DNA of 64,000 nucleotides from Micromonospora andamanensis (GTDB lineage Bacteria > Actinomycetota > Actinomycetes > Mycobacteriales > Micromonosporaceae): contig NZ_BOOZ01000024.1 in NCBI RefSeq assembly GCF_016863495.1, positions 1-64,000 on the forward strand. The letters run 5' to 3'. Both the position numbers and the translations under genes were made by a program. The notes below the pieces were generated by a model, which was not told where the DNA came from, ran no database searches, and saw only the letters and a program-made list of their open reading frames with translations. Shown one piece after another: positions 2,022 through 33,162 of this stretch (position 1 is its first letter; each line of letters begins with the position of its first letter).

Positions 2022-2384
2022 ATGGCCAACGCGACATATGACCGCAAGGAACAGTTCCAGCAGATCCAGAGCGGCCTGCTCGACGGCGAACAGATCATCG
2101 CCGTCTACGACGCTGTCGGCACCGGCACCGGGTTCATCGGGCTGACCGACAGGCGCGTCATCATCCAGGACCGCTCGTTCGTCGGCAAGAAGTACGCGAT
2201 CACCAGCATCCCGTACTCGAAGATCACCAGTGTGAGCGTGGTCAGCAACAAGTCATGGGGCGGCTCGTTCTTCTCCACCGGCGCGATCGCCATCCACGTC
2301 GGTACGCACACCTACGAGGTGGAGTTCCGCGGCGACCAGAAGAGCCACCACGTGCACAACGTCATCCTGCACTACATCAGCTGA
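2022..2384 (+). CDS. PH-domain protein (bPH/YvbH-like)
   Basis: About 120 residues, starting at ATG 2022, with ATG 2001 as an in-frame alternative. The sequence fits a single bacterial pleckstrin-homology-like domain: G-F-I-G-L-T-D-R-R-V-I-I-Q, I-P-Y-S-K-I-T-S-V and G-T-H-T-Y-E-V-E-F are the typical strands. No membrane segment or other domain is present. The role of this family is unknown. It lies between unrelated short genes and shows no operon evidence. Confidence 0.65.
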   Translation: MANATYDRKEQFQQIQSGLLDGEQIIAVYDAVGTGTGFIGLTDRRVIIQDRSFVGKKYAITSIPYSKITSVSVVSNKSWGGSFFSTGAIAIHVGTHTYEVEFRGDQKSHHVHNVILHYIS

Positions 2385-2485
2385 CCCGCCCGGGATTTTC
2401 AGTTGTCGCCGGAGATCGAGGCCTGTTGACTCACGAGCAGGGCGATGCCCTGCACAGGCACCAGCCGGACGAAGGGAGCGACGAC

Positions 2486-2596
2486 ATGAGGCACCTGACG
2501 ACGCCAACGCAGCGAGCAGGCACCGTCAACCCCATCGAATCGAGGCTTCGTGCGTACGTGGGAATCATCGGACAAGGCGCCGTGCGGCGCCGGTAG
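2486..2596 (+). CDS. Possible 36-residue small protein
   Basis: An ATG preceded by AAGGGAG opens 36 codons ending in three arginines. The stop lies 18 bp before the start of the methyltransferase at 2615. It could be a translated leader or small protein co-transcribed with the methyltransferase, or a chance reading frame. I do not recognise the sequence. Confidence 0.35.
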   Translation: MRHLTTPTQRAGTVNPIESRLRAYVGIIGQGAVRRR

Positions 2597-2614
2597 CAAC
2601 GACGGAGGCCGCTG

Positions 2615-3349
2615 ATGTCGGTCTTCGACGATCCGGGACACTTCGGTCGGCTCTGGGCCGACACCTACGACCAGCCGGGCGGGCTACCCGATCCGGCACC
2701 GGCTGTGGAGTTCCTCGCCGAGTTGGTCGGCGACGGCCCGGCACTGGAACTGGCCATCGGCACCGGCCGGGTCGCCCTGCCGCTGGCCGCGCGCGGGATC
2801 ACCGTGGCGGGGGTCGAGGCGTCACCGGAAATGGTCGCCAGGATGCGGGCCAAGCCCGGTGGACAGGGCATCCCCGTGGCCATCGGCGACATGGCGGACG
2901 TGCCGGTGACCGGCCAGTACACCCTGGTGTACCTGGTCTTCAACACCCTGTTCAACCTGGTCCGCGCGCAGCGGCAGGCGGACTGCTTCGGTAACGTCGC
3001 GCGGGTGTTGGCCCCCGGCGGCGCGTTCGTCATCGAGACGTTCGTGCCCGACCCGGCGGACTTCGACCGGGACGAGCAGGTCCAGATCCGGGAGGTGACC
3101 GAGGACTCGGCCACCATCCGCCTGCACAAGTACGACCGGGCGGCGCAGACGTTCCTCCGGCAGACCATCACGTTCCACTCCGCCGGGGTGCACCTGCACC
3201 CGTTCGCGATGCGTTACATGTGGCCCGAGCAGATCGACGAACTGGCCGGGCGGGCCGGTCTCCGGCTCGCCGAGCGGTACGCCGACTGGGACCGGTCCTC
3301 CTTCGGCCCGGACAGCACCTCGCACATCTCGGTGTACCGGCTCGGGTGA
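2615..3349 (+). CDS. Class I SAM-dependent methyltransferase
   Basis: 244 residues with the Rossmann-fold SAM-binding motif I at about residues 48-57 (LELAIGTGRV), the acidic end of strand 2 (GVEASPEM), and motif IV around LVYLVFNTLFN. The substrate cannot be told from sequence. The start is supported by CGGAGG eight to nine bases upstream. Downstream is a 128-bp gap with a short tandem repeat, then a separate gene. Confidence 0.85.
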   Translation: MSVFDDPGHFGRLWADTYDQPGGLPDPAPAVEFLAELVGDGPALELAIGTGRVALPLAARGITVAGVEASPEMVARMRAKPGGQGIPVAIGDMADVPVTGQYTLVYLVFNTLFNLVRAQRQADCFGNVARVLAPGGAFVIETFVPDPADFDRDEQVQIREVTEDSATIRLHKYDRAAQTFLRQTITFHSAGVHLHPFAMRYMWPEQIDELAGRAGLRLAERYADWDRSSFGPDSTSHISVYRLG

Positions 3350-3384
3350 CAGTGGTGCGGGCACGGCGGGGGATCGTCGTCGTG

Positions 3385-3423
3385 CCCGCACCACCGACCG
3401 GCCCCGCACCACCGACCGGCCCC
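3385..3423. repeat. 18-bp tandem repeat, two copies
   Basis: The unit CCCGCACCACCGACCGGC occurs at 3385-3402 and 3403-3420, followed by a partial third copy. It lies in the non-coding gap between the methyltransferase and the DUF218 gene. It is probably a slippage product with no evident function. Confidence 0.8.
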
Positions 3424-3477
3424 GCAGCGGCGGCCGGCTCGCCGGGGCTCTCGCACCGGGCTGGGATACTGGCACGC

Positions 3478-4200
3478 ATGCCGATCCGTTCGTCGCTGGC
3501 GACCCGACTTCGACAGGTCCGGGACCGGGGCCGTGGACGTTGGCTGCGCCGCACGCTGCTGGCCGGCGGGCTCGGTGTGGTGATGCTGATGACAGGTGTG
3601 TTGGCGAGCGTGAGCTGGATCCGCTCCGGCGCCGAAGGACGCACCCACCCGGTCGCGACCGTGCCCGAGACTCCGGTCGCCCTGGTGCTGGGCACGCGGG
3701 TCCAGCCGGACGGCACCCCGGCACCGTTCCTCACCGCCCGGCTGGAGATCGCCCGAGAGTTGTACGCGACCGGCAAGGTGCAGGCGATCCTGGTGTCGGG
3801 CGACAACATGCGCCACGAGTACAACGAGCCCGAGGCGATGCAGCGCTGGCTGGTCGAGCAGGGCGTACCGGCTGACAAGGTGGTACTCGACCACGCCGGC
3901 TTCGACACCTACGACTCGTGCGCCCGCGCGAAGCGGATCTTCGGGGTGGAGCGGGCGACTGTGGTGACCCAGCAGTTCCACCTGGCCCGCGCCGTCACGG
4001 TCTGCCGCCACCTCGGCATCGACGCCTACGGCGTCGGCGACGAGACCGCCCGGGAGCTCAGCCACCGCACCTGGCGGATCAGTTCCGTCCGGGAGTACGG
4101 CGCCGGCCTGAAAGCCGCGTTGGACGTGCTCTCCGGCCGCGACCCGGTGCACCTCGGCGACCGCGAGACCGGCGTCGACGACGCCCTCCGCGCCGGCTGA
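3478..4200 (+). CDS. DUF218 membrane protein (SanA/ElyC/YdcF family)
   Basis: 240 residues from ATG 3478. A basic N-terminus (residues 1-25) precedes one transmembrane helix (about 26-46), placing the rest outside the membrane. The DUF218 fold follows: ALVLGTRVQPDG, then A-I-L-V-S-G-D-N and E-P-E-A-M, and the V-V-T-Q-Q-F-H-L-A-R-A motif. The family is linked to envelope integrity and vancomycin-type barrier function in enterobacteria; its reaction is unknown. It is convergent with ychF, leaving 9 bp between stop codons. Confidence 0.8.
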   Translation: MPIRSSLATRLRQVRDRGRGRWLRRTLLAGGLGVVMLMTGVLASVSWIRSGAEGRTHPVATVPETPVALVLGTRVQPDGTPAPFLTARLEIARELYATGKVQAILVSGDNMRHEYNEPEAMQRWLVEQGVPADKVVLDHAGFDTYDSCARAKRIFGVERATVVTQQFHLARAVTVCRHLGIDAYGVGDETARELSHRTWRISSVREYGAGLKAALDVLSGRDPVHLGDRETGVDDALRAG

Positions 4201-31215: not shown

Positions 31216-33162
31216 TCAGCGGCGCGGTAGGTTGCCGGCGCCGGGCTGCTCGCGGTAAGGGAGTCGCTTCAGCTCGGGGTTGGCGGCGAGGTGATCGCGC
31301 ATTGCGGCCTGCCACCGGCGGACCTTCGCCGCAGCTCCAGCCCTGGCCTCGTCGGTCAGGGCCGCAGCCTCGCGCTCTTTCCACTTGCGGATGCCGCGCT
31401 CGATCTCCCGCTGCCGCTCCTTGGCCTCGTACCCCTTGGCGTTCGGGGTGAGCCGGGCCGGGCGGCGGGTCGCACCGGGCAGGTACGCCCTGAGGCTGTG
31501 CGTGCAGTTGTGCACTACAATTCCACTTGCGACATACCAACCGTCGCCAGTCTGGAGGTTGTACACGTGCCCCGCGTACTCACGCCTGACCAGGTCGACC
31601 ACCTGATCCGCCTCTACCATTCCGGCGAGCGCCAGTACGACCTCGCGGCCCGCTTCGGCATCAGCCAGGCCAGCGTCAGTCGCTGGATCCGCGTCAGGGG
31701 TGCCGCCATCAGCCGCGGCCAGGCCGCCGAGCGACGCGCCGGCCGGATGACCAGCGAGGAACGCAGCCAGCTCGCCGCTGCCGCCCACGATGCCGTCCGC
31801 GGCATGGCCCGAACCACCGACGACCTCGAACGGCGCGCCCGAGGCAAGCAGCGCACCCGTGCCCACGCCACGGCGGACGAACTCGCCGTGGCGGCACTTC
31901 TGCCAGGCTCCATCCCCCAGCAGGCCATCGGTAAGTACAACATCGACATCGGAGCCGAACCCGTCGCCGTGGAACTGTTCGGGGGCAACTGGCACGCGGA
32001 TGGGCGCCACCGGGCTCGCCTGCCGCAGCGCGTCGAACACATCGCCGATGCGGGCTGGAACCTGCTCATCGTCTGGTCCACACTCGGCCGCACGCTCGAC
32101 GTCGCCGCGGTAGCGGAGGACGCTCTGGCCTACGTGGAGCTGTCCCGCCGCGACCCAGCCTTCCGGCGTCAGTACCGGGTGATTTGGGGTGACGGGCAGC
32201 TCATTGCCGCTGGCTGTGTGGACGACGACGATCGGACCCTCATACCGCCGGGCGTCCGCCGCTACGACACCGCTGGGCGCTAAGACCAGGACGTCACCGG
32301 GGAAGCAGTTGGGGTGCTGAAGTCCCGCCGCGCGGGCCTCGTCGACCGTGCCGGCGATGTCCACGGTCACTGTGCCGTCGCCGACCATGCTGGGCAGCTG
32401 CACCCGGCCCCGTACGCCACCGGAGACGGAGAGGATCTTGCCTTCCCAGGGGCGGCAGCGCGGGCACTCGCGTGGGCTGTCGGAGACGATGACCGTGTCG
32501 ACCCCGAGCGTCGTGAGCCGGTCTGTTTGGCCCTGGACTGCGGCGCGTTGGGTGACCGTGCGGACGGCCATCTCCACGTAGCTGGAGAGCCGCCAGCGGC
32601 GCCCGGACACGTCGGTGAAGCTGACCACGCCCTGGTCGACGAACCGGGCGTACGCCCACTGGCTGGCCTGCCTGCGGGTCATCCCACCTGCCACCGACAC
32701 ACCGGTCGCCTGCGAGATCACCAGCCGGTACACGTCCAGGACGTGGCGGAGCACGTTGGAGTGCTTCGCGCCGACGTCGGCCGCCAGGGCTGCCGCAAGG
32801 TTCTCGACGACGGCGATCCGCGGTACGGTTCCGGCCGCCCGAGCCGCGCCGGCCGCGTCCAGGTCGCGGGGTAGCAGCTGGGCGGGCAGGTCGCGGGTGG
32901 CAATGCCCTGTCCGGTCCGGTACGCCCTGGCCAGCAGCTCCCGTAGCCGTTCCGCGTTCTCGTCGGCGACCAGGGCGAGGATCCGCTCGACTGCTGTGCG
33001 CAGCTGCGCGAGGGCACCGATGCGGGTGACGGCCCAGTCGGGGGCGTCTTGGCCGGCGGCGAGCCTGCGGGTGACCTCGTCGAGGATCGCGGACTCGGCG
33101 GCCCGGTAGAGGTCGACGGCGTTGCGGCTGATGGCCTCGATCTGGTCGCCGGTCAGCGCCAT
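31216..33162 (-). CDS. MuF-like minor capsid protein interrupted by an intein
   Basis: 648 residues. Extein residues 1-285 and 553-648 form a 381-residue MuF protein. Recognisable parts are the helical N-terminus, a metal-ligand-like CPRC pair (233-236), and the MuF signature H-P-N-C-T-H reconstituted at the splice junction, followed by R-A-Y-L-P-G. The intein is residues 286-552. Splicing is needed to restore the HPNCTH motif. MuF proteins enter the head with the portal, whose gene lies directly upstream. Confidence 0.9.
   Translation of the reverse strand: MALTGDQIEAISRNAVDLYRAAESAILDEVTRRLAAGQDAPDWAVTRIGALAQLRTAVERILALVADENAERLRELLARAYRTGQGIATRDLPAQLLPRDLDAAGAARAAGTVPRIAVVENLAAALAADVGAKHSNVLRHVLDVYRLVISQATGVSVAGGMTRRQASQWAYARFVDQGVVSFTDVSGRRWRLSSYVEMAVRTVTQRAAVQGQTDRLTTLGVDTVIVSDSPRECPRCRPWEGKILSVSGGVRGRVQLPSMVGDGTVTVDIAGTVDEARAAGLQHPNCFPGDVLVLAPSGVVAADARRYEGPIVVVHTASGNELPVTPNHPVLTPEGWVAAGQLHVGQSVLRYRGDVERAAECGPDDEQVPARIGDVFDALRQASPVAPIRVPVAPEQFHGDGFGSDVDVVLTDGLLGDGAWQKCRHGEFVRRGVGTGALLASGAPFEVVGGSGHAADGIVGGSGELAAFLAGHPAGASLGGLAAADGGTPDADPATDAGLADAEAGREVVLALAGMVEADQVVDLVRREYAGHVYNLQTGDGWYVASGIVVHNCTHSLRAYLPGATRRPARLTPNAKGYEAKERQREIERGIRKWKEREAAALTDEARAGAAAKVRRWQAAMRDHLAANPELKRLPYREQPGAGNLPRR
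31507..32307 (-). other. Intein (267 residues) in the MuF protein
   Basis: Starts at C286 (CFPGDVLVLAPSG, block A) and ends at H551-N552 (GWYVASGIVVHN, blocks F/G), followed by C553. Block B is G-N-E-L-P-V-T-P-N-H-P-V-L-T with T325 and H328. These are the residues required for a class 1 splicing intein. About 165 residues between the halves contain no sense-strand LAGLIDADG or HNH endonuclease motif. The insertion point is the conserved HPN^C motif, a typical choice of inteins for essential sites. Confidence 0.9.
31567..32283 (+). CDS. Homing endonuclease-like protein (HTH plus EDxHD/Vsr-like), antisense inside the intein
   Basis: 238 residues from GTG 31567 with GGAGG at 31554-31558, 8 nt upstream. 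Residues 22-42 are an HTH (YDLAARFGISQASVSRWIR). Residues 115-172 carry a PD-(D/E)xK/EDxHD-like core: N-I-D-I with D127, VAVELFGGNWHADGRH with E136, H143, D145 and H148, and AGWNLLIVW. The gene lies wholly within the intein DNA, on the other strand. Its TAA stop is the complement of a rare TTA Leu codon (L294) of the intein. Hand counts give GC at third positions of 36/40 in codons 1-40 versus 29/40 for the intein frame over the same bases. Confidence 0.8.
   Translation: MPRVLTPDQVDHLIRLYHSGERQYDLAARFGISQASVSRWIRVRGAAISRGQAAERRAGRMTSEERSQLAAAAHDAVRGMARTTDDLERRARGKQRTRAHATADELAVAALLPGSIPQQAIGKYNIDIGAEPVAVELFGGNWHADGRHRARLPQRVEHIADAGWNLLIVWSTLGRTLDVAAVAEDALAYVELSRRDPAFRRQYRVIWGDGQLIAAGCVDDDDRTLIPPGVRRYDTAGR

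Follow-up and report, generated by a model that had tools for sequence, protein, structure and literature searches.

A predicted homing endonuclease gene encoded in codon-aligned register on the strand opposite a phage head-gene intein

The stretch of DNA analysed here (the window: 64,000 nt of Micromonospora andamanensis, contig NZ_BOOZ01000024.1) carries on its minus strand, at positions 31216-33162, a gene for a phage head morphogenesis or minor capsid protein (Phage_min_cap2, E 1e-69; phrog_12049, head morphogenesis, E 2e-97), which is interrupted by an intein. The intein (31507-32307, minus strand, 801 bp) consists of 267 amino acid residues from Cys1 to Asn267, followed by Cys+1, with junctions of the form HPN^C...HN^C. 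On the plus strand of the same DNA lies a predicted homing endonuclease gene of 238 codons, and its presence, as described in the first-pass annotation of this sequence, was confirmed: it starts with GTG at 31567, ends with a TAA at 32283, is preceded by GGAGG (31554-31558) and fills 717 of the 801 bp (89.5%; about 90% had been claimed), its stop codon being placed opposite the TTA Leu codon of intein residue 9. Computation of the register from the coordinates revealed that this antisense open reading frame (ORF) is aligned with the intein frame, so that every one of its codons pairs with exactly one intein codon. A longer ORF from an upstream GTG at 31291 was rejected, since the ribosome-binding site, the homology and the conserved start opposite intein block F favour 31567.

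The sense product has the hallmarks of an intein at its ends. Profile searches returned intein_Cterm above its cut-off, and intein_Nterm and Intein_splicing below theirs, while Cys1, Thr40, His43 and Asn267 were invariant in an alignment of 28 inteins (the window and 27 of 32 other sequences). Larger-scale conservation was assessed in a 104-locus set, composed of 80 viral loci from the first of two scans of viral contigs, 23 phage and genome loci, and the window. Block B (TPNH, 32179-32190, minus strand), which faces the C-terminal region of the antisense product, retains its His in 104/104 and its Thr in 99% of these loci, and the His of block F (GHVYNL, 31555-31572, minus strand) is kept in 98% of 88; opposite these fixed sense residues the antisense residue varies. 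The C-terminal block G (GIVVHN) occupies 31507-31524 on the minus strand. In the structural model of the intein, block means of the predicted local distance difference test score (pLDDT) were 82-95 at residues 1-70, 86-95 from residue 231 onwards and under 50 at residues 128-214, and the two ends form a predicted Hint fold (Mtu RecA intein, Z 12.5, root-mean-square deviation [rmsd] 1.8 over 107 residues). An in-frame endonuclease in the sense linker was rejected, since no such domain matched there (the matches obtained were intein splicing regions) and residues 128-214 fall under pLDDT 50. With its middle free of endonuclease matches and predicted to be unstructured, the intein bears out the earlier proposal that the mobility enzyme is not an inserted in-frame domain.

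The predicted antisense product, in turn, is composed of a helix-turn-helix (HTH) at residues 7-43 (31585-31695, plus strand; HTH_28, E 3e-5, just below the cut-off), a conserved MTSEERSQLAAAAHDAVRG linker at residues 61-79 (31747-31803, plus strand; conserved columns A73, R78 and G79), and a Vsr/EDxHD-like nuclease core at residues 103-172 (31873-32082, plus strand), which includes E105, D127, E136, H143 and R155. Y124, N125, D127, E136 and R155 were invariant in 104/104 loci and E105 was found in 96% of them, with H143 conserved in 90% or more of alignment A2 (the window and 49 of 64 listed sequences). An AlphaFold2 model computed with 50 family members reached a pLDDT of 92.6 and a predicted template modelling score (pTM) of 0.76, and showed the HTH helices at residues 7-43 and an alpha/beta nuclease from residue 103. 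Comparison with VIA-align matched the model to VSR (Z 9.1, rmsd 2.7, 110 residues), I-Bth0305I (Z 7.8, rmsd 2.7, 89 residues) and NGO0050 (Z 7.5, rmsd 2.0, 83 residues), and its HTH to the DNA-binding domain of GcrA (Z 7.6), Z values of 7-8 being reached also by unrelated folds (a mitoribosomal chain, 7.4). Profile comparison yielded matches to 3r3p (E 7.7e-6 with alignment A1) and 3hrl, and Pfam MTES_1575 matched 46 of 50 family members at E<=0.01; in the profile alignment, D127 is aligned with an Ala of the crystallised 3r3p construct. A phmmer search of the Protein Data Bank (PDB) with the single protein found no nuclease, and BFVD returned eight matches at E<=0.001, the second of which was A7KV39 (266 aa), perhaps I-Bth0305I itself. 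The EDxHD/Vsr-like core that the first-pass annotation had guessed from motifs corresponds to what profile and predicted fold point to, namely Vsr and I-Bth0305I. In several relatives (L003 at 2270-3160, L005, L007, L008, L011 and L012) the antisense product is extended at its N-terminus by at least one additional HTH unit; its length can thus change while it remains antisense.

Homologues of the antisense product are widespread. A tblastn search with E<=0.01 matched 116 phage records, mostly from Salmonella (63), Gordonia (15) and Pseudomonas (15), and also from Escherichia, Vibrio, Idiomarinaceae, Haemophilus and others, with at least 80% of the product covered in 101 of them. Homologues antisense to head genes were found in phages of Salmonella, Escherichia, Gordonia, Pseudomonas, Vibrio, Idiomarina, Haemophilus and Mycobacterium; to judge by these sequences, the family is phage-wide and not confined to actinophages. 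In all 21 phage records inspected, the match lay antisense to an annotated coding sequence (head, minor capsid or hypothetical protein), in none of them was a gene annotated on the antisense strand, and the register was codon-aligned in 12/12 records for which it was computed. Some annotations of the sense gene may themselves be wrong: in L111 and other Salmonella phages the intein-bearing head gene is labelled NAD+--asparagine ADP-ribosyltransferase, which may be a mis-annotated head protein. The two viral-contig scans gave 361 and 398 relatives, 80 of each being examined (12 contigs common to both lists, as counted by eye, and hence about 148 distinct). In these loci, the frame opposite the antisense gene in codon alignment had no stop in 80/80 and 79/80, the antisense frame itself was open in 79/80 and 78/80, and each of the other four frames in 0/80. 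A scan of viral contigs with the single product of Escherichia phage Snoke gave one locus, and a scan of genome contigs with P0001 likewise one, in Glycomyces. Among the genome loci L096-L109, only the re-oriented L096, L098, L099 and L102 enter the stop counts; L101 resembles a free-standing Vsr/DUF559-type protein and L102 an unrelated protein. Neither a product without homologues nor a frame lacking conservation in related inteins, both of which had been named beforehand as refuting the idea, was therefore encountered.

An open antisense frame could nevertheless be non-coding, its apparent conservation being a shadow cast by the intein, itself conserved, in a stop-poor register. Such a shadow would be favoured by high G+C content and by the fact that this exact register mirrors sense conservation best, and for the window taken alone the probability of chance openness, given the codon usage of the window exteins, is P = 0.17, so that the caution voiced earlier about openness was right for this locus. 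Elsewhere the chance probability is 7e-6 in Snoke, 1e-11 in a Vibrio phage, 2e-9 in Aaphi23 and 0.05 in a Pseudomonas phage, and it falls below 0.05 in 40 of 85 loci, although sums of these probabilities over the 85 loci are illustrative only because the loci are related; G+C content was 0.55 or less in 23 of the 80 loci of the first viral scan. A shadow is also at odds with the codons that face the active site. The sense codons opposite Y124, N125, D127 and E136 are GTA/ATA, GTT/ATT, GTC/ATC and TTC/CTC, respectively, each with a fixed third base, and neighbouring codons for the same amino acids, Val or Ile, nonetheless have a different fixed third base, because the invariant antisense residues require it. 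The folds point the same way, the antisense product being predicted with a pLDDT of 92.6 and matched by profile to known nucleases, while the middle of the sense product is predicted to be unfolded.

The substitution pattern decides the matter. In a gap-free alignment of ten head genes of Guernseyvirinae (Salmonella and Escherichia phages; 1860 nt each), the fraction of variable sites at sense codon positions 1, 2 and 3 was 0.37, 0.24 and 0.89 in the exteins and 0.48, 0.12 and 0.33 in the overlap, i.e., in the overlap the wobble has left sense position 3 for sense position 1, where the third base of the antisense codon lies. The ratio of nonsynonymous to synonymous substitution rates (dN/dS) of the antisense frame in the overlap was 0.21 [0.15-0.28] at sites nonsynonymous in the sense frame and 0.18 [0.07-0.41] at those synonymous in it, compared with 0.74 and 0.80 for the same fake frame in the N-extein and 0.67 and 0.71 in the C-extein. 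The corresponding sense values were 0.39 [0.28-0.53] and 0.33 in the overlap and 0.05-0.12 in the exteins, so that both frames of the overlapping pair are under purifying selection. Sliding windows resolved this joint constraint along the gene: at codons 326-450 the antisense dN/dS was 0.11-0.23 and the sense dN/dS 0.86-1.84, and at codons 476-525, which contain blocks F and G, the sense value was 0.06 and the antisense value 1.27. The sense values above 1 over the core are attributable to antisense constraint on sense-silent sites, not to positive selection; over the nuclease core, constraint is loose on the intein linker and not on the antisense gene.

The lineage of the window shows the same behaviour by codon position and type of change. 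Between the window and its relative L014, single-base codon changes silent only in sense numbered 68 in the exteins and 11 in the core, and those silent only in antisense 21 and 28, respectively; this reversal in the core was also seen in three further relatives. Among ten actinobacterial sequences including the window, whose extein distances are near saturation, identity in the overlap was 0.58 for the antisense and 0.52 for the sense product, whereas it was 0.27 and 0.39 in the exteins and 0.47 and 0.77 in the rest of the intein, antisense identity thus exceeding sense identity in the overlap only. On this substitution pattern we reject the view that the frame is a non-coding mirror of the intein, to which we leave only a very small probability. 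Its homologues, its conserved register, the selection acting on its codons and the structure predicted for its product together place the antisense gene beyond chance.

Candidate signals for separate expression of the gene are encoded opposite the C-terminal intein blocks. In 86 of the 104 loci, the antisense gene starts (73 ATG and 13 GTG) on the three bases that pair with the His codon of block F, and an AGG or longer Shine-Dalgarno-like motif lies upstream of it in 69 of these 86. Block G was mapped in 80 of the 86 loci (57 of them non-redundant), and opposite to it lies a candidate -10 site whose distance is constant, namely 45 nt, in 76/80, with TANAAT in 31 of the 80 versus 1.9 expected from codon usage. 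In 200 synonymous-codon shuffles of the non-redundant loci, the 31/57 with a -10 score of at least 5 compare with 2.4 expected (maximum 7), and the 44/57 with Shine-Dalgarno-like motifs with 14.7 expected (maximum 22). The window itself has a -10-like box TACAAT (31516-31521, plus strand), ending 45 nt before the start and opposite block G, the GGAGG opposite block F and a GTG whose complement is the block F His codon.

Several lines of evidence suggest that the intein is mobile. When the two flanks of the head gene are joined, they match intein-less alleles of relatives and no gap falls at the junction, with 87% protein identity to Micromonospora phage pMLP1 and 88% to a genome of the same genus (G003), which is the precise insertion characteristic of homing elements. 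With the joined flanks as query, at least 80% was covered in one place in 139 of 144 phage records, the 30 listed being single pieces. The gene is patchily distributed, occurring in 3/61 genomes of the genus (one being the window's own and one weak) and in 12/296 genomes of the class (the window's own included, most of them weak). In Snoke and KMB36, both members of Kagunavirus, the inteins occupy different sites in the head gene, and from their sequences each phage apparently has an empty allele at the site that is occupied in the other; in the relevant passages of their paper, the authors of Snoke describe K1ind2 as being without the intein (PMC6776784). Ten diverse host proteins were compared with PHROGs: nine matched head-and-packaging families other than phrog_15127, and all ten matched phrog_15127, but the profile of the latter includes the intein. 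Junction signatures were diverse, with 75 among the 166 of 183 loci read by regular expression (some misread, L190 excluded), HPN^C being the commonest. The excluded L190 carries a family member at 2501-3361 (plus strand) whose opposite frame has four stops, i.e., a free-standing gene, which adjoins, with a small overlap, the 3' end of a MuF-like gene (3299-3832, minus strand) that has no intein and ends near HPGCRC. This free-standing form is possibly an ancestor or a derivative of the antisense form. A phage search with the L190 product returned mainly the same intein loci among the matches listed, together with Klebsiella, Caulobacter and Acinetobacter matches.

A real and selected antisense nuclease might serve some end other than homing, such as phage exclusion, DNA processing or control of the head gene by antisense transcription. 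Cleavage is in our reading a prediction, Vsr-like folds also occur in repair enzymes, HTH proteins can regulate, and antisense transcription could lower expression of the head gene. Such a role is nevertheless improbable in our assessment, since the gene sits in an intein at a conserved codon junction, close relatives have intein-less alleles, its presence is patchy, the insertion sites of Snoke and KMB36 differ, and the layout of HTH plus nuclease resembles that of known homing enzymes. Somewhat less improbable, but still unlikely, is that the window copy is a decaying relic of a real family. It is a prophage copy with GTG as start and TACAAT in place of TATAAT, and relatives bearing stops exist; on the other hand, it is full length, keeps the family-invariant residues and a high-confidence predicted fold, and in the core differs from L014 by more antisense-silent than sense-silent single-base codon changes (28 and 11).

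Taken together, the data support the interpretation of the first-pass annotation, and we hold with a probability of roughly 0.87 that the gene encodes an antisense homing endonuclease which mobilises its own intein, one DNA element coding on both strands. Besides the chance openness of this single copy, the following observations weigh against this reading. The antisense frame contains a stop in 3 of the 160 examined loci, and the start opposite block F could not be mapped in 18/104. The profile match to 3r3p weakened (E 0.005) when A2, the larger alignment, was used, the window protein itself scores below the Pfam cut-offs for MTES_1575 and HTH, and Foldseek with the whole model gave no PDB match at E<=0.001, so that the fold assignment rests on the profiles and VIA-align. 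TANAAT is limited to 31/80 loci, and a consensus scan of Snoke 2300-3300 found no -35 box or plus-strand sigma-70 site. Finally, at codons 276-325, which face the C-terminal region of the antisense product, the antisense dN/dS was 1.13, indicating constraint no stronger than in exteins, a weakness that covers only part of the length of the last quarter. The three loci with stops (L057, L139 and L192) have one each in the matched antisense stretch and an open intein frame, and possibly record decay of the endonuclease after fixation.

According to the preferred reading, the DNA between the extein halves would be a single mobile element. Read on the host strand, it would give the intein, whose self-excision would leave the capsid protein intact; read codon-aligned on the opposite strand, it would give a homing endonuclease with an HTH DNA-binding part and a Vsr/EDxHD-like nuclease part. 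The latter would have its own promoter, with the -10 box opposite block G, and would be translated from the Shine-Dalgarno site and the start codon opposite block F. During co-infection, the enzyme would cut head-gene alleles that lack the intein, at the HPN^C codons or close to them, and repair would copy intein and endonuclease together. We infer that such packing works because the demands are segregated along the element, the terminal splicing residues being placed opposite tolerant nuclease termini and the nuclease core opposite a floppy intein linker. Fairly probable, with less certainty than the reading itself, is its extension to a phage-wide class of two-faced elements, in which the two strands of one DNA stretch encode unrelated proteins in codon-aligned register, the endonuclease takes its promoter, ribosome-binding site and start codon from the bases opposite the splicing motifs, and the linker is hardly anything but the nuclease core read from the other strand.

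Inteins are usually described with the homing endonuclease as an inserted in-frame domain. Like canonical inteins, the element has splicing blocks at both ends and its mobility gene between blocks B and F; it differs in that this gene is on the opposite strand, and the sense middle, predicted to be unstructured, holds no sense-frame endonuclease domain. In the split inteins of fractured genes, an EDxHD-type enzyme is reportedly encoded as a separate gene between the intein halves, whereas the intein of the window is whole and fully overlapped. Vsr endonuclease (PDB 1cw0, 1vsr), the best structural match, is a mismatch-repair enzyme without HTH and not a homing enzyme. I-Bth0305I (EDxHD, PDB 3r3p), similar in its nuclease domain by profile and VIA-align, likewise combines a nuclease with a DNA-binding part to which it is tethered, but, by the grouping used in a review, is encoded by a group I intron (PMC3943268); the match covers the nuclease domain. 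The ShiLan element of phage methylases, as described in parts of PMC11855218, is also an in-frame phage insertion with an out-of-frame homing endonuclease gene and overlapping coding, but its HNH gene is on the same strand and has no detectable splicing domain or ribosome-binding site; the element of the window has the opposite strand, a Vsr-like fold, intein blocks with a predicted Hint domain and a Shine-Dalgarno-like motif, and thus is not of the ShiLan type. I-DsqI, shown to cut the empty site, is similarly expressed from the strand opposite its host element, although, in the passages concerned (PMC9548176), the host is a group I ribozyme intron in rDNA, the other strand has no protein-coding sequence and the enzyme is of the His-Cys box type. 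In the literature searched, no description of an antisense homing endonuclease gene in an intein was found; passages of enterobacterial phage papers that mention the intein do not mention the antisense gene, and a preprint that PMC11855218 cites, in the part concerned, for overlapping reading frames in actinobacteriophages (bioRxiv 10.1101/2025.01.02.630785) may, judging by its title, 'Actinobacteriophage Inteins: ... Non-Canonical Architecture', overlap with the present finding.

A recurrent class of inteins would thus keep its endonuclease on the other strand, where it has gone unannotated in 21/21 phage records inspected, and splicing and mobility would be packable into about 0.8 kb. What looks like a conserved intein 'motif', FHGDG for example, can mirror the active site of an antisense product. 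The pair represents a statistically strong and widely spread case of two proteins, both predicted to fold, encoded codon for codon on opposite strands, and the availability of diverse relatives, intein-less alleles and culturable phages makes antisense expression, dual coding and homing directly testable.

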